In this document: positions 6,672-64,000 of the stretch, piece by piece | Layout: each line of letters starts with the position of its first letter | Numbering within the stretch: the stretch's first letter is position 1 | NCBI GenBank assembly: GCA_910575755.1 | Contig: CAJTFO010000001.1 | Span: 496,001-560,000 of the forward strand | DNA length: 64,000 bases | Source: Desulfovibrionaceae bacterium | GTDB taxonomy: Bacteria > Desulfobacterota > Desulfovibrionia > Desulfovibrionales > Desulfovibrionaceae | Direction: 5' to 3' | Made by a program: the position numbers and the translations under genes | The notes under the pieces: generated by a model | Told to the model about the DNA's origin: nothing | Databases searched by the model: none | What the model saw: the letters and a program-made list of their open reading frames with translations, nothing else

Positions 6672-6677
6672 GATTTC

Positions 6678-7856: not shown

Positions 7857-8034
7857 CGTTCGTCGCCTCCGCCCTGACCGGCCCAGACTGCCAGTAGAAG
7901 CGCATGGAGCGGAGCGTATTGCCAACGCCCACGCGCTCGTGCTTCCAGCGCTTCCAAGTCCTGCGAAACGTGTCAAAGTTGGTTTTTAGCCTCTCGCACA
8001 TTTCATCAGCCGTCAGGAGTTCGGTGTCCATCAT
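7684..8034 (-). CDS. Putative excisionase / AlpA-like DNA-binding protein
   Basis: The 116-residue ORF starts MMDTELLTADEMCERLKTNFDTFRRTWKRWKHE, which reads as a winged-helix AlpA/Xis-type N terminus (LLTADEMCERL). It sits directly upstream of int in the same direction and runs into it by about 170 bases in another frame, so only the first 60 or so residues may matter. GGGAAG precedes the ATG pair. The position suggests a recombination directionality factor. The arginine-rich C-terminal half could be an out-of-frame extension with little function. Confidence 0.5.
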   Translation of the reverse strand: MMDTELLTADEMCERLKTNFDTFRRTWKRWKHERVGVGNTLRSMRFYWQSGPVRAEATNDGGIEVSDKERTALDCRRVSGRNTHRKEGGVSDKARRTGVGRGAENLSDAARRFGLA

Positions 8035-16364: not shown

Positions 16365-16439
16365 TGGTCGGAGTGGCGGGAATCGAACCCGCCTCCCCCT
16401 GTTCCCAAAACAGGTGCGCTACCGCTGCGCTACACTCCG
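16365..16439 (-). tRNA. Prophage-encoded tRNA-Pro(UGG)
   Basis: On the minus strand acceptor CGGAGTG pairs with CACTCCG, followed by a discriminator A and encoded CCA. The anticodon arm CCTGT-TTTGGGA-ACAGG gives TGG, reading CCA proline codons. The D arm (GCGCAGCGGTAGCGC) and T arm (GGCGGGTTCGATTCCCGCC) are intact, so it looks functional. It lies inside the leftward early operon, between two small ORFs. Confidence 0.93.
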
Positions 16440-51500: not shown

Positions 51501-51978
51501 AGATTATGAGGAATGGTACAAGAAGTGGAACGGACGCGCCAATCTGTACGGTACAGACATTACAAAACTTGCGGATGCAAGCCAATTTCAGCCCTCGGAA
51601 GGTGCAACCGTTGCAGACGTGGGACAAACAGGCACAGAAGCGCGCGAAGCGTCCCCAGAGAAAAAGGAACAGACCTCTGTTGCTTCCGCCTCTCCTGCCA
51701 CAGCCGCACCGCAGGAAGTGCAAACTGTGGCGGTGCAAGAGGTTCAGCCGCAGGCGTCGCAACGCTATCCAGAACCGGAACCGATTCGGCCTGAACCTTT
51801 CGCCGCGCCGCAACAAATTGATTTTTCGCAGGTTATCGCGCTGCTCACGCAGCTTGTGGATGTGACCAGGCAAAATGCGACAGGCAAGGAACGAGATACG
51901 GAAAACGCGAGTTCGCCGAATATTCCAATGGACTACGACGATCCGTTCTGTCTGGCTCTCGCTCACGATAGGGCATAA
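48547..51978 (+). CDS. Tail tape measure protein with two cell-wall-hydrolase-like domains
   Basis: The 1143-residue protein starts after CGGAGG. Residues 1-350 are low-complexity, charged helix; 350-450 is a glycine-rich hydrophobic region (GLLAGAGAALLGGA) typical of tape measures. A muramidase-like domain follows near residue 630 (GALSAQYESGAHGSDAIGHDRTGGTSYGKYQ), and an NlpC/P60-like domain near 865-955 with GIDCSGWV and GGIDHIVQT carrying Cys and His. The end is a proline/glutamate linker and short helix. It sets tail length and may help penetrate the cell wall. Confidence 0.8.
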   Translation: MDEDKRLPFQDVPELNQKQDDAQGEQFWAHIAELLEQIEANTRGGAGRGLSAAAVATPARPKEEAKAGKKQAGGPGAAHSNAAMRTTARTAPAERRPSRSIIPSPPAHQEKAASSSPLGGRSATKAPHPAGKGKNQDDGLGGGTGPHAARKQKEPDAPLPLPTKSQEALAQKREEAIAQKQSKGILGALKQNLASWDGSVASSDKSDMQDAAGLAAGGPLWSALKELKEVIPENDKEDDSLAGVLKKTIAQKTGVTAARERIDRAAETARAKVVTWAGGKVDAPKRGNRDKQGRFIKGAGKESKIAEKTLALASQEAREGKKRHDELVEAVKQGPKHGGGGIFGEDGLVDRMGRRRGARGAGTSKPGRMPGRRGKFGLLAGAGAALLGGASVFNGDPVSSAIDIGSAALSAPGAGKAAGAAGKALGLGAKGALGAAKAIPIAGQVLAAGMALYDGVSGWNDADMHREAFGLEDGQEASTGQKASAAAANILDMGGLLTGAAGLFGFEVSTSDIARGIFDFGDSIGSTLSDAWGGVTSLFSSDDEEGSEGLFGKLTEAISELTDTIDDDIREKEKPGIIASAGGFFSRFFGGDNSGSRSSDGDRSTRSDTGATRRAQAIMGKELGALSAQYESGAHGSDAIGHDRTGGTSYGKYQIASNTGTMDAFLRWAERNGGENGKEVAARMRSSGPLNTGSKSGAAVDTWRSLEREGKLGTLEHDFIKATHFDPAFAGIQSEELRKRVEGSKALQDVLWSTSVQHGAGGAAKLINRNFKQGMSDEEFINALYADRATQFSSSTVQVQKSARNRFADERQVALAMLQRERRGAAQMPQTAVEATSQALQLGTQEAIDRGVRYSFGSKNSGSGGIDCSGWVTENTRNMMEAVNAESGKPIYGKEAQAVLRKGANGGAAGLIQTVSEATGELLSNDALAPDRVREGMMIGMDTGDKGWDRGRFGGIDHIVQTYRDAETGRMMVSESSSRKGVTVTDYEEWYKKWNGRANLYGTDITKLADASQFQPSEGATVADVGQTGTEAREASPEKKEQTSVASASPATAAPQEVQTVAVQEVQPQASQRYPEPEPIRPEPFAAPQQIDFSQVIALLTQLVDVTRQNATGKERDTENASSPNIPMDYDDPFCLALAHDRA

Positions 51979-51980
51979 CC

Positions 51981-52328
51981 ATGATTGAAGCACAGCGAAT
52001 GCTCAAATCCTCACCAGGGGACGATGTTGAGCGATTTTCCGATGGCGATGCCATGAGCGAGCGTATCAGGGAATGGCTTGATACCCCGGAAGGGACAATG
52101 GCGCACTATCCGGCGTGGGGGCATAACCTCACCCCGTTCAGGCATGACCCTCTCAGCAAGGGCGGCGACCTTGATGTACTCATGGAAATGGCAATCGCGC
52201 GGAAATTGCCCATTGATGTGGAGGGCATCATCTTGCAGGGCGTGAATGTCGTTGTGATGGACATTGATTTGTGCCGTATTGAAATTCTGCACCAATTCGG
52301 GTTTCAGGCAGAGGAAATCCGCCTGTAG
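51981..52328 (+). CDS. Baseplate wedge protein gp25-like
   Basis: The 115-residue protein has GDAMSERIREWLDTPEGTMAHYPAWGHNLTPFRHDPLSKGGDL, the gp25/GpW pattern, with EILHQFGFQAEEI at the end. It initiates sheath polymerisation from the baseplate. Its ATG follows the tape measure stop by two bases. Length and order (gp25 before gp6) fit a T4-like wedge. Confidence 0.82.
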   Translation: MIEAQRMLKSSPGDDVERFSDGDAMSERIREWLDTPEGTMAHYPAWGHNLTPFRHDPLSKGGDLDVLMEMAIARKLPIDVEGIILQGVNVVVMDIDLCRIEILHQFGFQAEEIRL

Positions 52329-52337
52329 GGGAAAATC

Positions 52338-53744
52338 ATGATTCTGAACGAACAGGTTGCAAATAAACTGAAGACGCTCCTGTCTTCCCTCCCCTCGTGG
52401 AAAAGTCTTACAAATTCGCAATTCGTACAGCATCTTGCCATTTTCATGGGGTGGACCGTCGAAGATGCAAACTTCAAAATCGAGCGCGCACGCCAGGAAG
52501 CGTTCATCGGAACGGCTCTGAATCGTTCAAGCCTTGTCGCCCACGCCGAAGACCGTGAATATCTTCCCCGCAAGCCCAAACCCAGCGAAGGGACGGTTCT
52601 TTTCACCAATGCGGGGCCGCGCCCTGTCCTGCTCAAGAGAGGGCGCGAGTTCGTGTCCGATGCGCAGCTTCCCTATACGTTGGGTCTCAAGCTGCTTGTC
52701 CCCGCGCAGAGCAAGGTGGCCGCTCCTGTCACACAGTACGGAAAAACCTCAATTCTTCATACCGTAAGCGAAGAAAAGCCGTTTTATGAGATTCTTATCG
52801 ACAAGGCTCTAACCCCGAAAGTAATGGCCCTCGAAGTCTGGGTTGATAGCGGAGATGGATTCCGGAAATGGGAGTACAGCCGCCTCTTGACGAACGCATA
52901 TCGGGATTCTTTTGTCTGGGACGAGTTCTATCATGTGAGCGATCAGATAGGCATCAGGTTCGGCAATGGCACCTTTGGTAAAATTCCGCCACAGGGCGCA
53001 CAGGTGCGGATTGACATCAAGTACACGGATGGGGACACGCTTCTTCTGGAGCGGCAATACCTTTATCCCCTGGAAGAAATCGTTGATGTTGCCGGTGTCC
53101 CGGCATCTCTCAATATTGAGGTGGAAACAACCATCCAAAACGGTCAGGCGCAGGAATCAACAGAAGAAATGCGCCGAAACCTGCACTATTGGTCCGTGTA
53201 CAACGAGCGGCTTGTCTGGGACAACGACTACGAATATTTCATTCGCCGCCGATTCCCGGAAGTGGTTTTTGTGCGGGCATGGGGTGAAGAAGAAGCGGAA
53301 CGCCTTTGGGGGCCAAAGCTCGAACACATCAATAAAATCTGGATATGCGCCTACGCCCCGCGAGAAGGCATAGTGCAGGACGTGATGAACGCCATTGCGG
53401 ATGTTCCCATGCTATGCCGCAACTTTCAATGGTACAACCCGGAGCATGTATCCTTCACGCTGAGACTTACCGCACGGGTCTTGTCGGACAAGGTGCTTTC
53501 GGAGGTCGATGAAGACGTTCGCGCGGCCCTCATGCGGGCATATGGCCGCGATTCGCTGTATCGGCGCGACAAGGTGCTTGTCTCCGAAATCTACGAGTGC
53601 ATCCAGTCCACAGGGCACTTTGAAAAAGAAACCGGAGCATGGTTCGAGGCTGTCCCGGAAGGGCATTTTGAGGCCAACCTCATTTACCAGATGGTGAGTC
53701 TCGACCTTGATAATTCACAAATTCAAATCGCGTATCTCACATAA
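52338..53744 (+). CDS. Baseplate wedge protein gp6-like (J-type)
   Basis: The 468-residue protein has FKIERARQEAFIGTALNRSSLVAHAEDREYLPRKP, a domain with YEILIDKALTPKVMALEVWVDSGDGF and RNFQWYNPEHVSFTLRLTARVLSD toward the end, typical of the J/gp6 baseplate family. It links the gp25 ring to the inner baseplate. It is preceded by GGGGAAAATC. Assignment is by order after gp25 and pattern. Confidence 0.72.
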   Translation: MILNEQVANKLKTLLSSLPSWKSLTNSQFVQHLAIFMGWTVEDANFKIERARQEAFIGTALNRSSLVAHAEDREYLPRKPKPSEGTVLFTNAGPRPVLLKRGREFVSDAQLPYTLGLKLLVPAQSKVAAPVTQYGKTSILHTVSEEKPFYEILIDKALTPKVMALEVWVDSGDGFRKWEYSRLLTNAYRDSFVWDEFYHVSDQIGIRFGNGTFGKIPPQGAQVRIDIKYTDGDTLLLERQYLYPLEEIVDVAGVPASLNIEVETTIQNGQAQESTEEMRRNLHYWSVYNERLVWDNDYEYFIRRRFPEVVFVRAWGEEEAERLWGPKLEHINKIWICAYAPREGIVQDVMNAIADVPMLCRNFQWYNPEHVSFTLRLTARVLSDKVLSEVDEDVRAALMRAYGRDSLYRRDKVLVSEIYECIQSTGHFEKETGAWFEAVPEGHFEANLIYQMVSLDLDNSQIQIAYLT

Positions 53745-54054
53745 CCTCCATATCGTAAAAATTGGTTATTTTTACGCTTCCAGTGGGAAATTTGGCAATG
53801 ACATAAAGTTCGCCGCCCATCGCTTCAATATGTTCTCTCAACGTGGAAATATACATGTCTGTCTTTTTTTCCATCTTTGCGATAGTCGGCTGGCGCACAT
53901 GAAGAATTTCCGCCAGGTTTTTCTGTGTCAATCCTTGCGCTTTTCGTAATTCGGAAAGCCGCATCTCTTTCAACATTTCGTCAGCCTTTGCCGTTGAACG
54001 CGCCAGGGCTTCCGGCGACATTCTCGCTTCAAGCAGTTTAAAATTCCTGGCCAT
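53737..54054 (-). CDS. Orphan HigA-like antitoxin
   Basis: The 105-residue protein has ARSTAKADEMLKEMRLSELRKAQGLTQKNLAEILHVRQPTIAKMEKKTDMYISTLREHIEAMGGELYVIA, a classical XRE antitoxin of the HigA type. The gene in the place of its toxin is a 18-codon remnant overlapping its start, so toxin function is lost. Its expression probably still depends on the upstream palindrome. It may protect the host from cognate toxins elsewhere (inference). Confidence 0.85.
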   Translation of the reverse strand: MARNFKLLEARMSPEALARSTAKADEMLKEMRLSELRKAQGLTQKNLAEILHVRQPTIAKMEKKTDMYISTLREHIEAMGGELYVIAKFPTGSVKITNFYDMEVM

Positions 54055-54094
54055 CCAATAATCCATCCTTCATGTACTCCACTTCCCATTCCAT
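54038..54094 (-). pseudogene. HigB toxin remnant (18 codons)
   Basis: From ATG 54094 the frame reads MEWEVEY, the start of HigB-like toxins (WEVEY), and then MKDGLLDGQEF and stop, overlapping the antitoxin start. The rest of the toxin is gone, probably deleted between the 7th codon and the antitoxin leader. It is a decayed toxin gene. Confidence 0.6.
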
Positions 54095-54099
54095 GCGGA

Positions 54100-54123
54100 A
54101 AATATAGCCAAAAGGCTATATTT
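54100..54123. promoter_or_regulatory. Perfect palindrome upstream of the antitoxin, operator candidate
   Basis: AAATATAGCC-AAAA-GGCTATATTT is a perfect 10-bp inverted repeat with a 4-base centre, directly upstream of the toxin-remnant start. Such sites are typical operators of HigA-family antitoxins. It can also form a hairpin. Confidence 0.6.
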
Positions 54124-54241
54124 ATGCAAACTGCAAATATGCCAGATATGCGCTGGTTTTCGTTGATGCGGCCAATAATCGCCCTCTATCCTTGGCGAAA
54201 AATGTACGCACCGTGCATTGAAGCCGGGAATCAGGCGCGAA

Positions 54242-55387
54242 ATGAAAGATTGGCTCGTCAAAAGGCTCACGCCTCGCAAGCAAAAAGAAGACCGCTGGTT
54301 GGGGCTGGCCGAAAGCACCCAGACAATCTGGGAGCAGGACTTTGACCCGCAGCTTGTACGGCTTGAAGCTCTCCGCTCATATTTCAGTGCTGATGACGCC
54401 GACCTGGCGCGCAAACTGCGCGAAATGGGCGACTATTTTGCGGCGGACATGCCGCGGTCGAAAGACCGCCCCATTGCTGTTGCCTGGAGGCGTCTTGAAC
54501 TTGAGTACAAAGACCTCGAACTGATTATCACTTCTGTCTTCCGCAGGCATTACAGCGACCTTCCCGTCACCTGGTTCCCGCTGTTTGCCCCTCTTGATGA
54601 ACCCTACGGGACGCGCTTCATCCCCGCCGATGGCCCATGGCCAGAAAAGAAAAACGTCCCGCCGGAGGGAATGTTCCTTACCTCACGGGGCCTTCTGGGA
54701 ACCGACCACGCGCACCTTCTCTCCCTTGGCCTGACAAAACAGACTTTCCTCGACAAGGCCCTTCCGCTTCTTCTGCGCGCCAAACCGCTGCATATCGTCT
54801 TTGACGGTACTCTCTGGTATGCGCGTTTTGACTTCCCGTTTGAAGGCAATCCTGTTGCTTCCTGGGAACGCGACTGCGGTATTTTTGAAATGAATTTTGC
54901 CGTTCAGGGGACGTATTTCGATTCAACGGATGCCGATGCCTGTCCGCTTGACGTGCAAAAGATGTCTTGCCGATGGGAGCGTGAGCAGCCTTGCATTGCC
55001 ATCCCCTTTATCAGACCGAAAGAGCGCTTCTGGCACATGGATTGGCACGCTCCAGAGGGTTTTCCCCCCGACTGGTTGCCCCTTGATTGGTATATGGCCG
55101 GACACGAAGGAGAGCCTTGTATTCCTCTTGGCCTGTACCTGATTGAGAAAAAACGCTCTATCATCTTCCGTCAAAGTCTGGGGGAACTGGAAATCCATGT
55201 GGAGAAGACGACGCTTCCCTCGTGCCCCACGCCGTTCGTGTCGGAAATAGATGCGGCAGGCGAAAAGAACGTGTCCATGTCCGTAAAATTTCAAGGTCTG
55301 GACCGTCTGGATCGCTATCCGCGTTTCGATGACATCCCCGCTGATACATTCCCTCTGGATATGCCCGTAGGAGGTGCATATGCCTGA
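54242..55387 (+). CDS. Baseplate/tail protein downstream of gp6-like (381 aa)
   Basis: The 381-residue protein (MKDWLVKRLTPRKQKEDRWLGLAESTQTIWEQDFDP) has two beta-rich domains (DLPVTWFPLFAPLDEPYGTRFIPADG; LHIVFDGTLWYARFDFPFEGNP) and an internal repeat of a similar segment (WHMDWHAPEGFPPDWLPLDWYMAG). It is separated from gp6 by the antitoxin island and overlaps the next gene. A T4 gp7/gp8-like wedge or tail fibre attachment role is possible. No family is recognised. Confidence 0.5.
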   Translation: MKDWLVKRLTPRKQKEDRWLGLAESTQTIWEQDFDPQLVRLEALRSYFSADDADLARKLREMGDYFAADMPRSKDRPIAVAWRRLELEYKDLELIITSVFRRHYSDLPVTWFPLFAPLDEPYGTRFIPADGPWPEKKNVPPEGMFLTSRGLLGTDHAHLLSLGLTKQTFLDKALPLLLRAKPLHIVFDGTLWYARFDFPFEGNPVASWERDCGIFEMNFAVQGTYFDSTDADACPLDVQKMSCRWEREQPCIAIPFIRPKERFWHMDWHAPEGFPPDWLPLDWYMAGHEGEPCIPLGLYLIEKKRSIIFRQSLGELEIHVEKTTLPSCPTPFVSEIDAAGEKNVSMSVKFQGLDRLDRYPRFDDIPADTFPLDMPVGGAYA

Positions 55388-55823
55388 AACTCCGAAAGTA
55401 TGGCAACGAGCAAAGCTGCTCAATCGGTACTATGACAAGGTAGGCATGGCCGCTGCGGGCATTGGGCGTTGTCCCCGTTTCGTGGAGTTCCGCGCCGGCT
55501 TTGGACTGGTGGATGAATACAGCCCATCTGAGCTGGAATTGCAGGACATTCCCCCAGATATGAAGGAAATCCCCGGAGAATTTTACCGGGGATTTGTAGA
55601 CGTATCCTACAGCGCCGGGATTGCTCTGTGCAAATGCGAAATCCCGCAAGGCGCTGTCGGCGCTCCGGTACGCCACAACCTTATCGGCATCTTCGATGAT
55701 GAGGGGGATCTGATTGCCGTTTGCTCCACACTTCCCGACTGGGTAACGCCTGCCGAGGTCTATCGGGCGTTCCCGGCCATAACCTTCCCGCGTGAGGAGG
55801 AACGCACAGATGGCAACGAATGA
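55380..55823 (+). CDS. Tail collar/fibre-like protein (147 aa)
   Basis: The protein starts MPETPKVWQRAKLLNRYYDKVGMAAAGIGRCPRFVEFRAGFGLVDEYSPSELELQDIPPDM, a region resembling the N-terminal collar domain found in tail fibre assemblies. GGAGGTGCAT precedes the ATG. It overlaps the preceding gene by 8 bases and the next ATG. A role in fibre attachment is inferred. Confidence 0.5.
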   Translation: MPETPKVWQRAKLLNRYYDKVGMAAAGIGRCPRFVEFRAGFGLVDEYSPSELELQDIPPDMKEIPGEFYRGFVDVSYSAGIALCKCEIPQGAVGAPVRHNLIGIFDDEGDLIAVCSTLPDWVTPAEVYRAFPAITFPREEERTDGNE

Positions 55824-56517
55824 CGCCCCCTTGTTGCGCCAGAGTGTCCGCTGGGGGGAAGAATATGTTTCCCGCGCTCTGAACATGAAGATGGCCGGAA
55901 TCGTCAAGCCTGGCGTCTATCATGGCTTTGTACTCAAACCCGGCGGCACCATGTCAGTTCTCGTAGATCACGGATCGGACTATCCGCGTAGCGTAGCCGT
56001 GGTTGAGCGGAACGGTTATTCCCTCACGGTAGTTATGGACGATCCCGGCCTTGTGCGTATCCCGGCCACGGGAACATGGTTCGTCTGCCTTGAGGCGTTC
56101 TACGCCCCCACGCAGCAAGGGTACCAGCGCATTGTGGTTCGGGAACAGCCGGAACCGCACCATGTCGTGCTGGGCAAGGTCAGAGCCGGTATGCCATTGA
56201 CGGAACCCGGAGAAGATGAGGGCGACGATGGTGACGGGGAAGCGTCGGCTCCCGGTGAGGCGGTGGTCATCACCGAGGACATGATTTCTTCGGATGAAAT
56301 TGACAAGGCCAACGCCGACATTGCCACAGTCAGACAGATGGAAGCGCTCTCCGAGCAGCTTGAAAGGCATACCCGGAGAACGCTCATCCTGCACGCCGAA
56401 TCCACCACGCGGATGATACATCTTTCCCGTCGGCTTACGACCCTCGCCCTTACCGGAAGCGCGGCGGCGGGGGATGAAGACACCTATAGCCCGGCAAGCC
56501 CGGCAAACAGAGGATGA
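55810..56517 (+). CDS. Tail fibre-associated protein (235 aa)
   Basis: The protein has an N-terminal beta domain (VKPGVYHGFVLKPGGTMSVLVDHGSDYPRSVAVVER) followed by an acidic linker and a coiled coil (QMEALSEQLERHTRRTLILHAESTTRMIHLSRR). GGAACGCAC precedes the ATG. It precedes the DGR target gene and overlaps it, so it may be a fibre shaft or connector for the variable receptor-binding protein. Confidence 0.5.
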   Translation: MATNDAPLLRQSVRWGEEYVSRALNMKMAGIVKPGVYHGFVLKPGGTMSVLVDHGSDYPRSVAVVERNGYSLTVVMDDPGLVRIPATGTWFVCLEAFYAPTQQGYQRIVVREQPEPHHVVLGKVRAGMPLTEPGEDEGDDGDGEASAPGEAVVITEDMISSDEIDKANADIATVRQMEALSEQLERHTRRTLILHAESTTRMIHLSRRLTTLALTGSAAAGDEDTYSPASPANRG

Positions 56518-58202
56518 CAATGCCCGAAAACGAAATCCCCGACATGCAGCCCACGATGCAGGATGTCGCCGATAAACTGGATAAGGGGGCAGATGCGCTT
56601 GCGTCCGCCCAGGAACAGCTTGGCGGCGATGTAGCCAGGGCGCTTGCCCGACTTGCGGAGCACGAAGCCGATTCCAGCGCTCACGGGGGGGCCATTGGTG
56701 GCGGCGCATCCGCCTCCCAGATTGCCGAGGCTGTTGCAGCCCATAACGAAAGCCCCCTGGCGCATGGTCTGGATAATCCCGACAGTGCCATGTATCAGAT
56801 GATTGCTGCCGCCGCTGCCAATGCCGTCAATGACAAAATCGGTGAGTCTGACGGGCAAATCAATCTGGTGGCACACGCCAAGACACATGCAGCAGGCGCC
56901 GCTGATGCCCTCACCCCTGCGGACATCGGAGCCGTAGCGGATAATGATGACCGGCTTTCGGACGCGCGCGATCCGAAGCCTCACCATCATACGATGGACG
57001 ACATCACCGGCTTTTCTCTTCCTGGTGAAGAGGGAGGGGCCGAAGATGGCGGTACGGCCTCCATTTCAGAGTTTGTGGAGAAAAAAGCGAAGGCTGCCGT
57101 TTCCGCGCACGATTCCAGCGAATCCGCCCACGCCGCCCTCTTCGAGAATATCCTTGTCGGCAATACAAGTCCCATTATCGGCATCTGCCGTGTGGCAACA
57201 GGCGGCGGCGCCGGCCTCTGGTTCAACATTGACGAAGAAGGGAATCCGGTGTCGCCCAACACCGCCTACTTCGACAATAATCCGGTTTTCGGGGGCATCC
57301 GGCGCATGATTGTGGACGATCAAATCATGGGCAAGATTCCCCAGTTCTGGATGAAGGACTTCACCCCCACGGAAGGAATGTTCGCGGGGAAGCCGTGCAA
57401 GCTTATTTCTCCGGGCCAGAAAGAGGGATTCCGCATTCATCCGGCGTTCATGCACAATAACGCCCAGATTCCCTACTACCTGCTTGGCTGCTACGAAGCC
57501 ACGGATGAAGGCGGAAACCCGAAGAAACTCGGTTCCCGGCCCGGCAAACTCCCCTTCGTCAATGTGAACTTTGATACGATGAAGACCTACTGCGCCAACA
57601 GAAACGTCAACGGTGTGTCGGGGTTCATGCTCTGGGATGTTTATCAGTGGTCGGCCTTGACCCTGCTCATGCTCATTGAGCTTGCAACGACCGATGCTCA
57701 GTCCAGGTTGGGTCGCGGCAATGTGGACAAGACATGGGATGGGAAAACGAGCTATGCCGTCAACACCGACAGCCTGGTCAACCATGTCCCATACCGCGGC
57801 TTCCACGCCCTCTACGGAAACGTCTGGAAGATGCTTGATGGTGTTCGGGCGGATTCCAACAAGAAGACGGAAATTTTCAAGAATGACGGCACACGCGCGT
57901 GGATTTCCACGGGATTTGCCATGCCGCCATACTCCAGCGGTCTCACTGGCTGGCCGGTTTCCATGCGTTCCGGCAAGGGTGACGGTTACAACTTCGATGA
58001 TGTTTTTCTGCCGGAAGTTGTTACCGGGGCGGAAAACAGCGCAACATACGCGGACGGCTTTTGGGGGCCAGTTGCTAATGGTGTTTGTTATCAGGGCGGC
58101 ACTTGGCATTTTGGGGCGCACTGTGGCCCTTTTTGCCTGAATTTCGGTAATCCGTCGAGTGATGCGTACCTCAGCCTTGGAGGCCGTCTCGCAAAGATTT
58201 AG
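56514..58202 (+). CDS. DGR target: tail fibre/receptor-binding protein with variable C-terminal lectin-like domain
   Basis: This 562-residue protein has a helical N terminus, a collagen- and fibre-like middle with GAVADNDDRLSDARDPK and DDITGF, and a C-terminal domain (from about residue 270; FMLWDVYQWSALTLLMLIELATTDAQSRLG near 370) resembling the C-type-lectin/FGE fold used by DGR target proteins. Its last 36 residues (526-561) are the variable repeat: T530, H532, F533, G545, D550, Y552, L553, S554 and L555 replace Asn/Ile codons of the template. Diversification would change host-receptor binding. Confidence 0.85.
   Translation: MTMPENEIPDMQPTMQDVADKLDKGADALASAQEQLGGDVARALARLAEHEADSSAHGGAIGGGASASQIAEAVAAHNESPLAHGLDNPDSAMYQMIAAAAANAVNDKIGESDGQINLVAHAKTHAAGAADALTPADIGAVADNDDRLSDARDPKPHHHTMDDITGFSLPGEEGGAEDGGTASISEFVEKKAKAAVSAHDSSESAHAALFENILVGNTSPIIGICRVATGGGAGLWFNIDEEGNPVSPNTAYFDNNPVFGGIRRMIVDDQIMGKIPQFWMKDFTPTEGMFAGKPCKLISPGQKEGFRIHPAFMHNNAQIPYYLLGCYEATDEGGNPKKLGSRPGKLPFVNVNFDTMKTYCANRNVNGVSGFMLWDVYQWSALTLLMLIELATTDAQSRLGRGNVDKTWDGKTSYAVNTDSLVNHVPYRGFHALYGNVWKMLDGVRADSNKKTEIFKNDGTRAWISTGFAMPPYSSGLTGWPVSMRSGKGDGYNFDDVFLPEVVTGAENSATYADGFWGPVANGVCYQGGTWHFGAHCGPFCLNFGNPSSDAYLSLGGRLAKI
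58089..58195 (+). repeat. DGR variable repeat (VR)
   Basis: These 107 bases match the TR at 59746-59852 at an offset of 1657. All 75 non-adenine template bases match; 15 of 32 template adenines are replaced. The invariant 3' end TTGGAGGCCGTCTCGCAA would act as the initiation-of-mutagenic-homology region. It ends 7 bases before the target gene stop codon. Confidence 0.93.
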
Positions 58203-58235
58203 GCTACTGTGTCCTGTTCACTGCCTTTCTGAAAA

Positions 58236-58275
58236 GGCCGCCGAGAGGCGGCCGTGCTTTACCGCCGAAGGCGGT
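58236..58275. promoter_or_regulatory. Two hairpins just downstream of VR
   Basis: GGCCGCC-GAGA-GGCGGCC (58236-58253) and ACCGCC-GAA-GGCGGT (58261-58275) lie about 40 bases after the VR. DGR systems such as BPP-1 need a hairpin or cruciform downstream of VR for efficient retrohoming; these fit that place, though a terminator role is possible. Confidence 0.55.
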
Positions 58276-58302
58276 CGAAAATATTTTTGAAGGAGAAAGC
58301 GT

Positions 58303-58566
58303 ATGTCCGAAATCAAATTTTCTTATGGCGGACAGGAGTTCACTACGCCCGTACCGCTTTCCGGCCATGTGAAGCTGTACGCAGTACCTGAAAACTACAG
58401 CGATGACGGCCTGTACCTCGCAACATGGGCCAACGGGGAAATCGAACCCATCCCTGCCTGTGCCATCGGCGATACACTCATGCTTGCCCACCTGGAAATG
58501 ACGCAGGACGGCAAATCCTGCAAAAGAATCTATCTCGCGGAGGGGGTGAAGTATGCCCAGAAGTAA
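58303..58566 (+). CDS. Small tail-fibre-region protein (87 aa)
   Basis: The 87-residue protein (FSYGGQEFTTPVPLSGHVKLYAVPENYSDDGLYLATWANGEIE) is beta-rich and lies just after the DGR target with GAAGGAGAAAGCGT before the ATG. It may be a fibre assembly or chaperone protein typical of genes after receptor-binding proteins. No family is recognised. Confidence 0.5.
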   Translation: MSEIKFSYGGQEFTTPVPLSGHVKLYAVPENYSDDGLYLATWANGEIEPIPACAIGDTLMLAHLEMTQDGKSCKRIYLAEGVKYAQK

Positions 58567-58969
58567 CCAAGGGGTGAATCCTGAAACCTGGCTGTCAGGC
58601 GTGGAACACGCCAAGGCCCAAAAACTGGCCGAGATCAACGACCAGTGTGATATGATGCTGGGCGTTCTGACCAAGAGCTACCCCGGTTCCGAACTCCTCA
58701 CCTTCGACCAGCAAAAGACGGAGGCGGAAGCATATCTCTCCGACCAGAGCAAACCATGCCCGCTTCTGGCCCCGCTTGCCCAAGCGCGTGGCATAGAACT
58801 GCAAGACCTGTGTAATCGCGTCATCGTCAAAGCTACAGCCTTTTCTGCCGCGTCCGGTGCAATCATCGGCCAGAGGCAGAAGTTTGAGGATATGCTGGAC
58901 GCCTGTACCACTCCTGAACAGGTGGCGGCCATCGAAGTCATCTATGCGCTTCCGGGAGCAGGGGCATGA
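58553..58969 (+). CDS. Tail fibre assembly-like protein (138 aa)
   Basis: The 138-residue protein (EKAKAQKLAEINDQCDMMLGVLTKSYPGSELLTFDQQKTEAEAYLSD) is a helical protein of the type found after tail fibre genes, with DLCNRVIVKATAFSAASGAIIGQRQKFEDMLDACTTPEQVAAIEVIYALPG at the end. It resembles fibre-assembly chaperones (DUF4376-like). Overlaps the previous gene. Confidence 0.55.
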   Translation: MPRSNQGVNPETWLSGVEHAKAQKLAEINDQCDMMLGVLTKSYPGSELLTFDQQKTEAEAYLSDQSKPCPLLAPLAQARGIELQDLCNRVIVKATAFSAASGAIIGQRQKFEDMLDACTTPEQVAAIEVIYALPGAGA

Positions 58970-59313
58970 AAACGTGGGACTGGCGATTTGGCCCCAGAAA
59001 GGCCGCATTTCGCCATAATGCGAAGCAATGCCTCATTGCGGCAGACCAGCTCGGAAACGCCTCTCTGGGGCTGTTTCTGGGCCTTCTTGGCCTGCTATAC
59101 CTTCTCCCCCGCGCCGCGGGTTATTGGTGGGCCGATGAAACTATCAGCGCCCATTGCTGGCGCTGGGAAATAAGCGGTGTGCGGCGGTGGCCTCGTGTCG
59201 TTGTGGATTTTCTGGCCGCCTGCCTGGGTGACATCAACCACTGCCGGGAATCGTACATTTCGGAGAGGGAGGGACGGCACTTGCCCCCTGATATTCGCGC
59301 CGGCCCCGAATAG
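58966..59313 (+). CDS. Unknown small membrane-spanning protein (115 aa)
   Basis: The 115-residue protein has one hydrophobic segment (LGLFLGLLGLLYLLPRAAGYWW) after a basic N terminus and ends in a hydrophilic stretch (RESYISEREGRHLPPDIRAGPE). It lies just before the terminator preceding avd, and overlaps the preceding gene by ATGA. A holin-like or superinfection-exclusion role is possible; no family is recognised. Confidence 0.5.
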   Translation: MKTWDWRFGPRKAAFRHNAKQCLIAADQLGNASLGLFLGLLGLLYLLPRAAGYWWADETISAHCWRWEISGVRRWPRVVVDFLAACLGDINHCRESYISEREGRHLPPDIRAGPE

Positions 59314-59345
59314 CTCTTGTCTGTCTGTTTGGCCAATGATACCTT

Positions 59346-59369
59346 GCCCCCTGACAAAGGGGGCTTTTT
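59346..59369 (+). terminator. Intrinsic terminator before the DGR avd gene
   Basis: GCCCCC (59346-59351) pairs with GGGGGC (59359-59364), followed by TTTTT. It ends the tail-fibre transcript immediately before avd, so avd-TR-RT may be transcribed separately or by readthrough. Confidence 0.8.
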
Positions 59370-59370
59370 C

Positions 59371-59748
59371 GTGGCATTGGATAGCTTGCAAATCCTGACG
59401 AAACTGGAGGAACTGAATCAGTATTCTCATCAGACCGTTATGCTCTTTCCAAAGTCAGAAAGGCATGTTCTCGCGCAGGATATACGCAATACCCTTGCCA
59501 CTCTGATTCACCTCACAATCACTTCCGCCAAACGCTATTACAAAAAGACAACATTGCAGGATATGGACATAGAGCTTGAATACCTTCGTGTTCTGATTCG
59601 TATGTCCAGAAACCTTGGTTACATCAACGACCATAAATATGAAGTGTGGTCTGGTCATGTTTCCGAAGTCGGAAGGATGCTTGGCGGATGGCTCAAACAT
59701 GTTCGTGACCCAAAACCTGGGACACAAGATAGCAGGGCTACAACCTAA
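59371..59748 (+). CDS. avd: DGR accessory variability determinant (Avd)
   Basis: The 125-residue protein (from GTG 59371) is basic and helical: LQILTKLEELNQYSHQTVMLFPKSERHVLAQDIRNTLATLIHLTITSAKRYYKKTTLQDMDIELEYLRVLIRMSRNLGYINDHKYEVW is the Avd four-helix bundle pattern. Avd forms a basic pentamer that binds the DGR RT and RNA. Its stop codon TAA is the first bases of TR. An in-frame TTG upstream (59317) precedes the terminator and is unlikely. Confidence 0.85.
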   Translation: MALDSLQILTKLEELNQYSHQTVMLFPKSERHVLAQDIRNTLATLIHLTITSAKRYYKKTTLQDMDIELEYLRVLIRMSRNLGYINDHKYEVWSGHVSEVGRMLGGWLKHVRDPKPGTQDSRATT

Positions 59749-59852
59749 AAGGGCGGCAATTGGAATAATGGGGCGCACTGTGGCCCTTTTTGCCTGAATT
59801 TCAATAATCCATCGAGTAATGCAAACATCAACATTGGAGGCCGTCTCGCAAA
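59746..59852 (+). repeat. DGR template repeat (TR)
   Basis: This is the invariant RNA template. It begins at the avd stop codon and codes, in VR frame, for Asn-rich codons (AAT/AAC at nine places) that become variable in VR. Adenines are the only positions that differ from VR. The 3' end TTGGAGGCCGTCTCGCAA matches VR exactly. Confidence 0.93.
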
Positions 59853-59954
59853 TCAGCACCCGCCAGAGGCCATGTCCCTACCGGGGGCGTGGACAGCGCG
59901 AGTGATTTGGGGTTGTAGTCCCCCTCGGCCAACAGCGCCGGGGAAACAACAATG

Positions 59955-60003
59955 GGGCCGGAACGGCAAGTAAGATGCCTGAACGCGGTTCCGGTCCTTT
60001 TTT
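59955..60003 (+). terminator. Terminator-like structure between TR and RT
   Basis: GGGCCGGAAC (59955-59964) pairs with GTTCCGGTCC (59988-59997, one G-U), enclosing a smaller GGCA/TGCC hairpin and followed by TTTTTT. It could end a separate TR RNA or form part of its structured 3' region. The ATG at 59975 lies inside it, favouring the RT start at 60011. Confidence 0.55.
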
Positions 60004-60010
60004 GGAGCCT

Positions 60011-61054
60011 ATGCCAAAACCCGCAAAAAATTTATGGCCGCAGGTCGTGGACTTCGGCAACCTATACGCCGCATGGCATGGAGCGCGTTGTGGAAAACGG
60101 TACTATGATGAGGTACTCCGATTCTACGGACGCCTTGAAGACAACCTGCTTGAAATCCAACGAGCCTTGATTGCCGGGACGTGGTTCCCTTCTCCGTGTC
60201 GAGAGTTCGTTATTCGAGAACCCAAACTCCGCCTTGTCCAGGCGCCCACTTTCGCAGACCGCATCGTCCATCGTTCCCTTGTGAAAGTCATCGAACCGTT
60301 CTTTGAACGGCGGTTTATCCCGGACAGCTTTGCCTGCCGGAAAGACAAAGGGCCGCACGAGGCCAGCAAACGACTCCGCAGTTTTATCACAACCGCAAGC
60401 GCGAACTGGTTCCATCCCTATGCGCTCAAGGCGGACATCAAAAGCTACTTCCCCAACATCCGGCACGGCATTCTGTTACGCCAGATTGCAAGGACACTGG
60501 GCGATGTGAATGTGCTTGATCTCTGCGGAAAAATCGTCCTGAAAAACGGCTTTACCGATTCAGGGCTCCCCATCGGGGCATTGACATCGCAACTCTTTGC
60601 AAATGTCTATCTGGATAAGTTCGACCATTTTGTAAAAGATGAATTGGGGGTCAAATTCTATGTCAGATATATGGATGATTTTATAATCGTTGGCGAAGAT
60701 AAACGATTTTTGAAATCAATTCTTGCATCTATTGAAAATTTTCTGAATGAAGAGCTTGAATTGAATCTAAATCCGAAAACGTCCATCTTTCCTATATCAC
60801 ACGGCATTGATTTTTCTGGATATAGACACTGGACAACACATACTTTGCCCAGAAAGCGCAACACACGCCGGGCAAGGCTTGATTTCAGAAGGATTGCGCG
60901 AGAATACGCCGAAGGGAAAATAGATTTGGACTACATCCGCCCGCGAGTGGCTTCATTCTGCGGCCAGATGAAGCACTGTGACGCCACCAGAACAACGGAA
61001 AGCGTTCTCTCCGAGCTTGTCCTGGTCCGCCCTCCACGCGGACGCATGGCGTGA
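60011..61054 (+). CDS. DGR reverse transcriptase
   Basis: The 347-residue RT has motif A LKADIKSYFPNI (Asp at about 142), motif 4 GLPIGALTSQ (185-194), and catalytic YMDD (220-223) in FYVRYMDDFIIVG. The IGxxxSQ form of motif 4 is typical of DGR RTs. It copies TR RNA with errors at adenines, and the cDNA replaces VR. Start ATG 60011 has GGAG three bases upstream; an upstream ATG at 59975 lies in a hairpin. The C-terminal thumb region is short and basic. Confidence 0.92.
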   Translation: MPKPAKNLWPQVVDFGNLYAAWHGARCGKRYYDEVLRFYGRLEDNLLEIQRALIAGTWFPSPCREFVIREPKLRLVQAPTFADRIVHRSLVKVIEPFFERRFIPDSFACRKDKGPHEASKRLRSFITTASANWFHPYALKADIKSYFPNIRHGILLRQIARTLGDVNVLDLCGKIVLKNGFTDSGLPIGALTSQLFANVYLDKFDHFVKDELGVKFYVRYMDDFIIVGEDKRFLKSILASIENFLNEELELNLNPKTSIFPISHGIDFSGYRHWTTHTLPRKRNTRRARLDFRRIAREYAEGKIDLDYIRPRVASFCGQMKHCDATRTTESVLSELVLVRPPRGRMA

Positions 61055-61160
61055 AAATATCGAACCTCTGCATATCTGCCACATATTCATAAAATCTTCT
61101 TGCCGGGTCTTGATGGCTTTACGACCATGAGCGGAACCATACTTTTGCGAGGTTCCACGC

Positions 61161-61769
61161 ATGGCAGCACCATCAAAGCAAGTTCGGCTCCCATTTGACA
61201 AGCTCACGGAACAGAATCTCCGCCCGATCATCAAAAAAATGGAAAAATGGGGTTTGGAGGTCACGTCCGTGGATGCGCCGAATCGCGCGCGCCGGGAAAG
61301 TGGCTTCTTGCTCAAAGACGTGACCTTCGTCTTCGAGGACGGCCAAAAGATGCTCGTTCGCGTGAAGTCTGATGGTACCGTCTTTCAGGTCAAGCTGAAC
61401 AAGAAGGTCGTCCCTATCCGGCATGTGGATGACATGGACAAGGCCATCATCGAGATGGTGGATTACGTCCAGGAAAACGCGAAGGCGTATGAGCGTGCGA
61501 AGCTCCAACGGGAACGTCGACGCAAGCTGCATATCGACCCGCCGCCAGTGGTCACAAACCGCCGGGAGAAGATTGAGCGTGCCAAGGGCCAGCTTGCAGA
61601 ACTCACTGCAAGCAACGAAGACCTTCAGGCCCAAATTTCCGCAACGGAAACCACAGTTCAAATGAAGCAGGCTGAGTTGGACAAGGCTGTGGCAGCCCTC
61701 AAGGCGGAACAAAATAAAACCGTCGAACTGGAGCGCATACTGACAGAACTGGAGGGGGCACAAGCATGA
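61161..61769 (+). CDS. Coiled-coil protein of unknown function (202 aa)
   Basis: The protein begins RLPFDKLTEQNLRPIIKKMEKWGLEVTSVDAPNRARRESG (a globular region of about 90 residues) and ends in a long coiled coil (AELTASNEDLQAQISATETTVQMKQAELDKAVAALKAEQNK). It is translated with the next gene (ATGA overlap). Its place next to a ClpP-like protease gene suggests a head or internal virion protein. I do not recognise the family. Confidence 0.5.
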   Translation: MAAPSKQVRLPFDKLTEQNLRPIIKKMEKWGLEVTSVDAPNRARRESGFLLKDVTFVFEDGQKMLVRVKSDGTVFQVKLNKKVVPIRHVDDMDKAIIEMVDYVQENAKAYERAKLQRERRRKLHIDPPPVVTNRREKIERAKGQLAELTASNEDLQAQISATETTVQMKQAELDKAVAALKAEQNKTVELERILTELEGAQA

Positions 61770-62914
61770 ACGGGGATTTTGATTTCTTTGAGCCTGCGCT
61801 TGCATCCGAAGACGGTGCCACTCCCGTAAGCGCCCCCAACCCGTATTGGCAAGGGCATCGTGTCGTGGACAGGGACGATCTCTTTCCGAAGGGCTTTTCT
61901 CAAGTCGAGCTTGATGCCACCTATGCAAGCCTCGCCAATGACGTTCACGACCTTGGTCTCTTGCTCGAATCGCCTTCCCTGGACGAACTGGACTACTACA
62001 ATCCCGGCAGGGATGAGGTCGAGGAAGGCTATGTTCTTGAGGCTATAACCGTTGAGCACTTCTCGCGCACGGAACGCCGCATGGCCGCCGTGGTGCGGGT
62101 ACTGAACCGGCACCTCTCCGATTCGGAAATCAAAGCCTTGCCTCCGGTTGTCGGGAAGCCGAAGAAATCCGGTTCCTTTGCGTATGTTATCGTGCAGCTT
62201 CCCTTCTCCGATGGACAAACGGTGAATGTCGTCTTCCATTCGCCGGAAGGGGATAAAAAACGCATCGGCCCAAGTGACGCCATTATTGCCTTCCGCTGGC
62301 TCCTCAACAAGCGGGACATTACGCATGTCGTGGCCCCCGAAGACGGGGAAGAAATCTCTCTGGAGAGCATTGCGAAGCGTATCACGCAACTCGTAGTCAA
62401 GAACTCGGCGAGGTTTGAGCGCCAGCAGAAAGCGGCGCAAGCGGAGCGGAAAGAGCTTGAAGAAACCCGTGAGGCCGTAAAGGACGCGGAAGAACGCCAG
62501 TCCGCCCTGATGGAACAGGTTTCCGCCAAGGCCAAAGAGACGGAAACCATTGAAGCGCGGCTTTCCAACACGCTTTCCCTACTGGAGAAACAGAAGACCA
62601 TCAACGCGGAATTGCAGGCGAAGATTGACGCGCTGCGCAGGGCCAAGCCCGGCGGCGGAACAGGCGGAACCTCTGGCGATGGCAAAGGTAAAAAGGGTGA
62701 CACTGCGGGCAATGGTAGTGGCACACCGCACTATGCCCGCGACCTTCGGGACATTCTGGACGGCAAATACGATGCCGATTCCGGCAAGGTGCTTGACCTG
62801 CTCGAACAGGCAATCACGGCCGCGGAGAGTGACGGCAAGCTTGAAGAGTTCCAAGCCCTCTTGGATGCCGCATCGAATCACCTGACCGATCTGCTGGCCA
62901 AGGAGGCCGCATGA
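61766..62914 (+). CDS. Unknown coiled-coil virion-like protein (382 aa)
   Basis: The N-terminal half is globular (DRDDLFPKGFSQVELDATYASLANDVHDLGLLLES ... VVGKPKKSGSFAYVIVQLPFSDGQTVNVVFHSPEGDKKRIGPSDAIIAFRWLLNKRDITHVVAPE), followed by a coiled coil (about 235-295), a Gly-Ser-rich linker (GGGTGGTSGDGKGKKGD) and a short helix. It may be a head-internal or scaffold-like protein; the domain recalls large phage proteins of defence-against-restriction type, but I cannot confirm this. Confidence 0.5.
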   Translation: MNGDFDFFEPALASEDGATPVSAPNPYWQGHRVVDRDDLFPKGFSQVELDATYASLANDVHDLGLLLESPSLDELDYYNPGRDEVEEGYVLEAITVEHFSRTERRMAAVVRVLNRHLSDSEIKALPPVVGKPKKSGSFAYVIVQLPFSDGQTVNVVFHSPEGDKKRIGPSDAIIAFRWLLNKRDITHVVAPEDGEEISLESIAKRITQLVVKNSARFERQQKAAQAERKELEETREAVKDAEERQSALMEQVSAKAKETETIEARLSNTLSLLEKQKTINAELQAKIDALRRAKPGGGTGGTSGDGKGKKGDTAGNGSGTPHYARDLRDILDGKYDADSGKVLDLLEQAITAAESDGKLEEFQALLDAASNHLTDLLAKEAA

Positions 62915-63873
62915 TGTTGAATATCAAGGAAAAACTGACCCTTCAACGGGCGGTCAAGGAAGGTCTCGACAAGCTCAAGTCAGGCATCAAAGACATCCGG
63001 CAGCGGCTTGCCACGCAAAGACAGATAAAGGAAGCGCTGGACAAGCTGAAAGGCGTGTCTGGGGGTGACTCCCAATCACTCTTCGAGCAGCTTATTGCCG
63101 GAAAATTTCTCAAGGAAGTTCCGGCCCGCTTCCTTGCGATTCTGAAGAAGGCTCTGGCCGAGGTGAACGGCAATATTCAGATGATTCAAGACCCGGTTAT
63201 CGCCTACCTCGCGGAGCACCATAGCGAAGAAGGCGTGTTCGAGAGCGCCGATGTATCTTCTTTTTTACCGGTGCGTCCTTTTGACGCAAAAAATCAGGCA
63301 AATGGAGCCGTTCGCTCCTTGCCAAAAGGCCTCGAATACGGCGCTCCGCAGAACATCATCATAGACATCGACACCGATTTTGAGTCTCCCGAAACCTTCC
63401 GGGGCATCATCCGCGCCATTGAACAGGCGCGCGAAGTGGATACTGTCACCCTCAAAATCAATTCCCACGGAGGCCGCACCGATTCGGCTCAGGCCGTCTA
63501 TGCAGCCCTCATGGAATGCAAGGCCAAGACCATCGCGCGCATCATCACGGCCTATTCCTCCGGCTCCATCGTGGCCATGTCCTGCGATGAGATTCAGACC
63601 ACTCCCCACTGTACCATGATGATTCACAATGCTTCGGGGTTTTCGTGGGGAAAGGTCGGCGACATGAAGGCCCAAAGTACGTTCCTGGAAAAGCATTTCA
63701 GGAAGTGGTTCGATGAACTGTATTCCGGCTTTCTGACTGCTGAGGAAATCGCGGACGTTCTCAAGGGCCAAGAGGTTTGGCTACGCGAGGAAGACATCAA
63801 GAGCCGTCTCCCGAAGTGGAGGCCTATCCGTGAACGCCGAGGTGCAGAAGCGCAAGCCAACAACGCGGGATAG
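62911..63873 (+). CDS. ClpP-like serine protease (possible prohead protease)
   Basis: The 320-residue protein has an N-terminal helical region and then a ClpP/crotonase-fold protease: NIIIDIDTDFESPETFRGIIRAIEQAREVDTVTLKINSHGG, ITAYSSGSIVAMSCDEIQTTPHCTMMIHNASG, with the catalytic Ser in SSGSIVAM and His in MIHNAS, and GQEVWLREEDIKSRLP. It resembles phage ClpP-like head proteases that process scaffold or capsid proteins. Upstream coiled-coil genes could be its scaffold substrates. Confidence 0.75.
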   Translation: MMLNIKEKLTLQRAVKEGLDKLKSGIKDIRQRLATQRQIKEALDKLKGVSGGDSQSLFEQLIAGKFLKEVPARFLAILKKALAEVNGNIQMIQDPVIAYLAEHHSEEGVFESADVSSFLPVRPFDAKNQANGAVRSLPKGLEYGAPQNIIIDIDTDFESPETFRGIIRAIEQAREVDTVTLKINSHGGRTDSAQAVYAALMECKAKTIARIITAYSSGSIVAMSCDEIQTTPHCTMMIHNASGFSWGKVGDMKAQSTFLEKHFRKWFDELYSGFLTAEEIADVLKGQEVWLREEDIKSRLPKWRPIRERRGAEAQANNAG

Positions 63874-64000
63874 CACTGTGGCATTTTATAGCACGCTGGA
63901 ATCGGCAACGCAGGCCGTGCGAGATGCGAAGAGTTTTGGCGACATCGTTGCCATCTTCAGTGTTTTCTCGCGCCATGGAGAGATCATTTCTTCCGAGACC
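63830..64000 (+). CDS. Unknown phage protein, 3' end beyond window
   Basis: A frame open to the window edge starts at GTG 63830 with GGAGG seven bases upstream and overlaps the protease gene. It begins with a basic stretch (QKRKPTTRD) and continues LESATQAVRDAKSFGDIVAIFSVFSRHGEII. It could be a head or portal-region gene; too little is present to name it. Confidence 0.5.
   Translation, partial: MNAEVQKRKPTTRDSTVAFYSTLESATQAVRDAKSFGDIVAIFSVFSRHGEIISSET

Follow-up and report, generated by a model that had tools for sequence, protein, structure and literature searches.

The stretch of DNA analysed here, 64,000 nucleotides from a Desulfovibrionaceae bacterium and called the window below, contains a diversity-generating retroelement (DGR) cassette next to phage tail genes. 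With a probability of roughly 90% this cassette is an intact and naturally active DGR carried by a P1-like temperate Desulfovibrio phage. The cassette is a canonical DGR; directly observed are its anatomy, the adenine-specific signature of its two repeats and the variation of the variable repeat (VR) among otherwise near-identical phages. The DGR itself is a system of an already known type; the new element seems to be the slot which Cin invertible segments and DGRs have in common.

Organization of the cassette

All parts of a DGR are encoded on the + strand in the expected order: the target gene, three small open reading frames, the gene of the accessory variability determinant (avd), the template repeat (TR), and the gene of the reverse transcriptase (RT). 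The VR (positions 58093–58195) comprises final codons of the target gene and can be aligned without gaps over 103 bp to the TR (59750–59852) at an offset of +1657. There are 13 mismatches, and all 13 are located at adenines of the TR. Since the TR contains 29 adenines in 103 columns, this would be expected with P = 6e-9 if the mismatches were placed in random columns. When the TR stretch was searched in the source genome (2.83 Mb, 61 contigs), two matches were obtained, the TR itself and this VR; a second VR was not found elsewhere in this genome.

The avd gene (59371–59748, likely start codon GTG at 59371, open reading frame from 59317) encodes a protein that passes both curated models, NF033474 (E 8.6e-31, 106.3 bits with a cut-off of 80) and PF22296 (101.8 bits with a cut-off of 40). 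The RT (60011–61054, open reading frame 59975–61054) has 347 amino acids and matches PHROG 1423 (E 4e-123). Its sequence contains YMDD and, as motif 4, IGALTSQ, and its best relative in the PDB is 8ub7_A (E 2e-50), a chain identical in sequence to the BPP-1 RT. The cassette RT is the one match to RVT_1 in the source genome (2.83 Mb, 61 contigs), where further matches were not detected. With the RT as the only query, two relatives were found in the genome-contig collection. Thirteen of 13 mismatches at TR adenines, an Avd above the cut-offs and the BPP-1 RT as closest structure confirm the initial annotation, which had proposed a complete DGR with these parts and RT motifs from the sequence alone and had suggested the Avd profile search as a check.

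Several hairpins accompany the cassette. The stem–loop GGCCGCC-GAGA-GGCGGCC (58236–58253, + strand) begins 41 nt 3′ of the VR and is followed by a second hairpin (58261–58275); the DNA fold of 58203–58300 has a z score of −2.7. In BPP-1 a stem–loop after the VR aids retrohoming. Of 12 other DGR loci, among them BPP-1, 10 have a stem of at least seven base pairs within 130 bp after the VR (the exceptions are L068 and L037), compared to 255 of 5,200 random windows. A consensus scan yielded in addition a terminator-like hairpin 5′ of avd (59346–59364, + strand), whose 3′ arm appears to overlap the likely ribosome-binding site of avd. The spacer between TR and RT (59853–60010, + strand) corresponds by its position to the place of the BPP-1 "sp" RNA; the RNA fold of 59846–60010 (z −1.35) is not exceptional and does not support a structured RNA. 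At gathering thresholds, Rfam matched only a tRNA.

The cassette thus combines an adenine-specific TR/VR pair, a DGR-type RT with YxDD, an Avd, a VR at the 3′ end of the target gene and a stem–loop 3′ of the VR.

The target protein and the small open reading frames

The target gene (56514–58202, + strand) encodes a tail protein of 562 amino acids (PHROG 5302 "tail protein", E 1e-32). When the target sequence alone was compared to the PDB, no chain was found at E ≤ 0.001. A profile of the target family (A1, the window protein and 46 relatives) matches 5VF4, which is TaqVP, with E 6.8e-13 over the whole sequence; the third segment of this match falls on the VR and is weak by itself (i-E 1.2). 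Judged from this sequence profile match to TaqVP alone, the C-terminal part of the target resembles a DGR variable protein with a C-type-lectin fold of the FGE subtype. A target homologue is also present at L144, where matches to the RT, Avd, and P1 proteins are absent from the 16 kb covered.

The three small open reading frames on the + strand have counterparts at L036. The first (58303–58566, 87 amino acids) has no family match, is 40% identical to L036 and occupies the same place there. The second (58553–58969, 138 amino acids, 57% identity) belongs to PHROG 2618 and the third (58966–59313, 115 amino acids, 43% identity), which has a hydrophobic stretch, to PHROG 3342, both of unknown function.

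The prophage and its host

The prophage had initially been described as T4-like, with a contractile tail and a sulfate reducer as likely host. The last two assignments agree with our results, as a sheath gene is present and as the named relatives of the host gene hisD that flanks the prophage, among the 120 listed, are from Desulfovibrio or Desulfovibrionaceae. The virion genes are P1-like instead of T4-like: 27 of the 51 P1 proteins compared match the phage at E < 1e-3. The P1 gene order is kept within blocks, except for prt-pro, which is located elsewhere and on the same strand as darB. Among 50,697 phage records, the sheath is matched in 23; these belong without exception to enterobacterial phages (P1, P7, D6, and others), and none has a T4-like name. 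The bplA-like protein is only 21–25% identical to those of Rhizobium, Agrobacterium, and Xanthomonas phages (40 of 43 matches listed), which we take to be T4-type. On the basis of the P1 protein matches, the names of the sheath records and the low bplA identity, we reject a T4-like origin.

A homologue of P1 U was not found at E < 0.5, and P1 cre, repA, parA, and parB are without match in the phage. It is not a Cre-lox plasmid-prophage but is integrated at a tRNA-Ser gene (6580–6671) and has att repeats and an integrase. The attL core of 69 bp (6606–6674) overlaps the tRNA gene, and attR lies beyond the window at the equivalent of positions 76712–76780, with two mismatches to attL. The tyrosine integrase (6684–7976, − strand), for which the Xer-type recombinase models remain below their cut-offs, adjoins attL.

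On the + strand upstream of the cassette are the P1 bplA-like baseplate protein (52338–53744, phmmer E 2.7e-65), a P1 gene 16-like protein (54218–55387, E 1.6e-21), a P1 R-like open reading frame for tail fibre assembly (55374–55823) and a homologue of the N-terminal part of the P1 tail fibre S (55792–56517, E 7e-10, S residues 20–89). The R-like frame is matched with phmmer filters off (E 8e-5) and by PHROG 2032 (E 4e-4), while with default filters no phmmer match is listed. The adjoining S-, R-, and gene 16-like frames place the target in the tail fibre region, as had been claimed. Downstream on the same strand are the P1 hdf-like (61161–61769, E 3.7e-23, PHROG 1620) and darA-like (61766–62914, E 1.9e-30) genes and a ClpP-like head maturation protease (62911–63873, PHROG 1827 and 1684).

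Natural alleles of the variable repeat

The initial annotation had suggested that a VR uniform across many induced phages would speak against a working DGR. In public contigs the VR is not uniform, as it differs between otherwise near-identical phages. UViG 3300006217_000029 (IMG/VR) represents this phage as a complete genome of 70,184 bp, the ends of which are joined across attP. These ends overlap by 77 bp over the phage-att-phage junction, so that the assembled form was circular or had its ends joined in another way. Compared to the window positions 50011–64000 it is identical but for 18 substitutions, all in the VR and 17 of them at TR adenines; its TR is identical to that of the prophage. 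Over the rest of the ∼70 kb, the two genomes are separated by a single substitution, a single indel and two differences in the att core. With so few changes outside the VR and the att core, the 18 changes in the VR are very recent or repeatedly renewed. A second record, UViG 3300006204_000070 (31,199 bp, all compared), has 14 substitutions, again all in the VR and 13 at TR adenines, and outside the VR nothing but one 8-bp insertion at 27468. The sole differing position that is not a TR adenine is 58096, a G in the prophage and the TR and a C in both UViGs.

Each UViG allele contains 11 VR bases that are absent from the TR and from the prophage VR. The two alleles have several variable bases in common, with 9 differences between them over the 98 positions present in both. 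Both are assembly consensuses with neighbouring IMG numbers and thus perhaps from one project. The reading frame is open in all three DNA alleles over the stretch covered. A fourth allele is given by the database protein P0001, the representative of a 24-sequence cluster listed from a source other than the UViGs: it differs from the target by 11 residues, all in VR residues 530–555, and at 0 of 524 residues outside. More distant target homologues also vary much outside the VR, for example P0002 with 11 of 36 residues in the VR and 51 of 523 outside. A search of viral contigs for the exact pattern of the VR end recovered the known UViG alone. In these natural sequences, the VR diversifies and the TR, compared in one UViG, remains constant.

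Could the VR differences arise from assembly, given that VR and TR are confusable repeats of 103 bp? UViG 3300006204_000070 does stop inside the VR (window position 58190), so that repeats or variants do break assemblies. A chimera of TR and VR would, however, make the VR more similar to the TR, whereas 11 bases in each UViG allele are found in neither the TR nor the prophage VR, and P0001 from its separate source provides yet another allele; we regard an artefact as very unlikely. Slightly less remote, but still unlikely, is that the DGR was formerly active and is silent in this copy, the alleles being old variants spread by phage recombination. The changes cannot be dated from public contigs, and the bases common to the UViG alleles, with their few mutual differences, would fit old variants. 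In addition, the VR of L057, a sibling DGR, is the same as in the UViGs L061 and L062, which were compared over 13.8 and 15.5 kb; this single allele counts against a universal fast turnover, unless the records stem from one sample. On the other hand the reading frames of RT, Avd, and target are without stop or frame break, and a recombined VR is expected to carry flanking changes, none of which were found.

It is hardly conceivable that the retroelement is a defence RT or a retron with incidental repeats. The RT is indeed matched by 91 PADLOC models and by several NCBIfam models of defence RTs, but all nine NCBIfam RT matches are far under their cut-offs and the top PADLOC match is a generic RT. 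The Avd, the exclusive mismatches at adenines, the natural VR variation, and the BPP-1 RT as top PDB match argue against such a role, and the allele comparison between prophage and UViG weighs strongly against it.

The slot between the tail fibre genes and hdf

The DGR is located between the tail fibre genes and hdf, with the bplA-like and hdf-like genes as left and right markers of the slot. P1 and D6 have the Cin invertible segment at this place. Among 43 closed slots scored, nine harbor a DGR (six distinct phages), three cin and 31 neither; Cin and DGR together were found in none of them. In the record of the UViG of this phage, neither the serine invertase model PF00239 nor P1 Cin has a match, and Cin-type fibre inversion is not apparent in this phage. 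The RTs of the slot phages do not form one clade. At least three RT lineages are represented, in Desulfovibrio and in further phages whose host is unknown, and the lineages vary even within one bplA clade of phages. The cassette of the window (target, three small genes, avd, TR, and RT) was also found with all its parts together next to a P2-type tail, which suggests that such cassettes are transferred complete with their targets. We consider it probable that the slot in P1-type virion modules is exchangeable for host-range diversification machines, with cassettes moving between unrelated tails.

Comparison with known systems and implications

The cassette resembles the BPP-1 DGR (mtd-avd-TR-brt) in the order target-avd-TR-RT on one strand, in the adenine-specific VR that ends the target, in the Avd and RT families and in the stem–loop after the VR. 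Unlike BPP-1 it has three additional small genes between VR and avd, and it resides in a P1-like contractile phage of Desulfovibrio with a target of 562 amino acids. TaqVP, the variable protein of a Thermus aquaticus prophage DGR (PMC6328139), is matched by the target-family profile, VR on VR; it is described as having a single domain, whereas the Desulfovibrio phage target has a long N-terminal part. For Desulfovibrio piger prophages, the sections of PMC12724379 available to us report DGRs in group B, Mu-like proteins in three of four groups, and a target homology between two strains that is lower over the variable repeat. Host genus, retron-type RT, Avd-like protein and FGE-type or tail fibre target are common to both systems; neither a P1-like phage nor a whole-genome comparison of alleles appears in these sections. 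According to the excerpts of PMC6199706 and PMC12135933 at hand, DGR activity on a tail fibre is also reported for the Hankyphage of Bacteroides, likewise a temperate gut phage with a DGR, which differs in being Mu-like and transposable and in infecting another host phylum.

By analogy to BPP-1, a complex of RT and Avd would reverse-transcribe the TR RNA with errors at adenines; the functions of these two proteins, an RNA as intermediate and the involvement of the stem–loop are carried over from that system. The resulting cDNA would take the place of the VR, at the 3′ terminus of the target gene, and leave the TR unchanged. As outcome the C-type-lectin-like domain at the C-terminus of the tail protein would be rewritten, 11 residues of which differ between two of the alleles. 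From its position and fold, the target product may be a receptor-binding tip, so that the host surface recognised would be altered. The presumed purpose is the same as for the Cin C-segment inversion of P1 and D6, which is found at the corresponding place among related virion genes; there site-specific inversion provides two fibre versions, here error-prone reverse transcription is used.

Between the prophage and the end-joined genome of this phage, nearly all differences fall in the VR, which gives a clear record of DGR activity in nature. Our results suggest that phages of one virion type use interchangeable host-range mechanisms at one locus, either fibre flipping or targeted hypermutation. 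When two-state switching and when open-ended hypermutation is favoured can now be approached by comparison and experiment.

Cassette and natural variation of VR

The initial annotation had claimed a complete diversity-generating retroelement (DGR), and every part is indeed present in the window, all on the forward strand: a target gene (56514–58202), three small ORFs, avd, TR and an RT gene (60011–61054). VR (58093–58195) and TR (59750–59852) align without gaps, and each of the 13 mismatches is at a TR adenine, a base that occupies 29 of the 103 columns (P 6e-9 under random column placement). TR contains ten AAY codons, the usual DGR route to many amino acids without stops. The RT carries the motifs YMDD and IGALTSQ, matches PHROG 1423 and has as its best solved relative 8ub7_A (PDB), which is letter-for-letter identical to the RT in the BPP-1 record. 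The Avd profile comparison likewise bore out the annotation, as the window Avd scores above the NCBIfam equivalog and Pfam cut-offs. Beginning 41 nt 3′ of VR is a stem–loop whose loop reads GAGA; PMC12875486 describes BPP-1 retrohoming as aided by such a stem–loop without strictly needing it. Immediately 5′ of avd, within 59346–59371, lies a terminator-like hairpin whose 3′ arm runs into the probable ribosome-binding site and which might thus limit avd expression.

A VR uniform across many induced phage had been named as the outcome that would speak against the element; in related public phage contigs VR differs, predominantly at TR adenines. By scanning IMG/VR with the window RT we found the virus record (UViG) 3300006217_000029, which differs from window positions 50011–64000 at 18 sites, all inside VR and 17 of them at TR adenines (hypergeometric P 7e-11). 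When this record was compared over its full 70,184 bp with the prophage, that is, the window plus the adjoining stretch of the same genome, the differences outside VR amounted to one substitution (66388), a 1-bp insertion (24139) and two altered positions within the att core. UViG 3300006204_000070 (31,199 bp), which matches window-equivalent positions 27000–58190 and stops within VR, has 14 substitutions, all in VR and 13 at TR adenines, and an 8-bp insertion at 27468. All three alleles cover 26 of the TR adenines, and at 19 of these at least one VR has a base other than A. Each UViG allele has 11 VR bases absent from both TR and the prophage VR; a comparison of the two alleles shows 9 differences in 98 positions. 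At the protein level, the homologue P0001 differs from the window target at 11 residues, all at 530–555, and at none of 524 positions outside VR. More distant pairs are less clean, with 9/36 differences in VR and 7/525 outside (P0003 and P0004), 11/36 and 51/523 (P0002 and the window target), and 11/36 and 83/511 (P0005 and P0006).

The sole VR difference off the TR adenines is position 58096, 4 nt into the repeat, which is G in TR and the prophage and C in both UViGs. Given this place near the start of the repeat, a variable 5′ limit of the copied tract would account for the difference, and the site perhaps marks the 5′ extent of each homing tract. As counter-evidence to variation, the sibling phage L057 and two UViGs share one VR. 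DGR activity is established in phages and metagenomes (PMC8144416 and PMC12135933), and DGRs are described in D. piger prophages (PMC12724379). We regard the window cassette, with a probability of about 0.9, as a canonical, naturally active DGR of an already known kind.

Prophage and target protein

The prophage extends over window-equivalent positions 6606–76780 between 69-bp att repeats with two mismatches between them, and sits in tRNA-Ser with the integrase adjoining attL. The ends of UViG 3300006217_000029 overlap by exactly 77 bp across a phage–att–phage junction; therefore, the sample contained the phage as an excised circle or in some other end-joined state. Judged by its hisD relatives, the host is Desulfovibrio. 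The prophage also carries a gene for tRNA-Pro (TGG) at 16365–16439.

The phage had been called T4-like. However, 27 of 51 tested P1 proteins match prophage ORFs at E<1e-3, and three blocks keep the P1 order: 26-25-7-6-5, then 23-22-21-pmgG-bplB-pmgC-tub-pmgB-sit-pmgA-bplA-16-S, and hdf-darA-ddrB-darB-ulx. The designation is therefore unsupported. The third block is followed by prt-pro, whereas in P1 these genes lie beside darB on the opposite strand, and the pmgT and mat matches are to ORFs outside the three blocks. The other 24 proteins, including cre, repA, parA, parB, cin, R and U, went unmatched at this first threshold; with filters off an R-like ORF is found between 16 and S (E 8e-5). An ORF of 2,064 aa past the window end (window-equivalent 65924–72118) matches the anti-restriction protein DarB of P1 (E 1e-302).

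The target, 562 aa long, belongs to the tail-protein family PHROG 5302. A PDB search with its sequence alone gave zero chains at E≤0.001. When the target was combined with 46 relatives into a profile, 5VF4 was matched (E 6.8e-13) over three collinear segments, the last of which pairs VR with VR and is weak when taken alone; 5VF4 is TaqVP, a DGR protein with C-type-lectin fold from a Thermus prophage (PMC6328139). A target homologue with 47% identity occurs in the Desulfovibrio genome G138 (L144:4737–6167); the 16 kb examined there contain nothing that matches RT, Avd or P1.

Occupants of the fibre slot

Between S and hdf, P1 and D6 have an invertible fibre segment together with cin and lysis genes; the window phage has the DGR there. 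A bplA-family search yielded 185 related loci in viruses, 80 of which were taken on; four other Desulfovibrio genomes (5/348 class genomes including the window's own) and, besides the window's own, one of 395 phylum genomes contributed further loci. The census comprises 85 stretches (the window and L054–L137), many of them near-duplicates. In 43 both markers, bplA on the left and hdf on the right, are seen; nine of these closed slots have an RT, three have cin (in L123 a short weak match only) and 31 neither, in the sense only that homologues of RT and Cin are absent; the search for further kinds of switch consisted of PF00239 in 17 virus records. This serine recombinase family is present in the two cin records and absent in five DGR records and ten others, several records being fragments and the L059 phage being left out. 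Cin occurs in three of the 42 unclosed stretches. L130 has no Cin match, yet its bplA is identical to that of P1, and L142, scored separately from the 85, has neither RT nor cin.

The nine RT slots represent six distinct phages: window (with L055), L056, L057 (with L061 and L062), L059, L068 and L081. All mismatches in the aligned stretches of their TR/VR pairs are at adenines: 13/13 in the window, 12/12 in L055 (a stretch omitting site 58096), 16/16 in L056, 17/17 in L057 (pair split by an indel), 17/17 in L059, 25/25 in L068 and 11/11 in L081. The scan leans to such pairs because non-A mismatches are penalised; it also returns ordinary, non-A-specific repeats in L057 and L059, and no pair in 15 of 15 stretches without RT, among them the unclosed slots L069 and L070 and the entire 19.9 kb of L142. 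The RT of L056 (7264–8292; UViG 3300001580_000240) has YMDN in place of the YMDD of the window, which may reflect a loss of enzyme activity or an error in sequencing, although its TR/VR pair is still A-specific. Beside the divergent RTs, helper ORFs exceed Avd length: that of L057 (11157–11762, 201 aa) matches the Avd PHROG over residues 94–198 only (E 2e-9), and that of L059 (8682–9311, 209 aa) matches only PHROG 30516 (unknown).

A quick-method tree of bplA (37 rows) puts the window in one group with L057 and L059 as well as three unclosed loci (99, starred). DGR presence requires at least three changes on this tree when unclosed rows are omitted, and six (at least five forced by starred branches) when they are counted as lacking a DGR. 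The 22-row RT tree (careful method), a check proposed in the initial annotation, places the window RT among same-genus and same-family RTs (91/91) with L036 first (94/86), neither starred; L057 and L059 form a far clade (100/99, starred), and the L068 RT sits with a pair of RTs from a single same-family genome (98/96, starred). The window phage and its nearest virion-gene relatives thus have distinct DGR lineages at one shared position; the exact tree places of L059 and L081 are unsure because of their long branches. Of 247 family genomes, 11, including that of the window, encode a window-like RT (E≤1e-30). L036 has the seven parts in the window's order (target, three small genes, avd, TR, RT; 36–57% protein identity), downstream of Tail_P2_I and a tail-collar fibre protein; its P2-type tail proteins have no match in the window.

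In open-licence full text we found no paper joining DGRs with P1-like phage, or with phage P1 and inversion; earlier notice outside that literature is possible. PMC8008677, which matches DGR and bacteriophage P1, has the phrase in its reference list only. A search for Desulfovibrio with P1-like gave nothing on topic, as judged by title. We consider the slot which is shared with the Cin switch of P1 and occupied by several DGR lineages to be the part most worth following.
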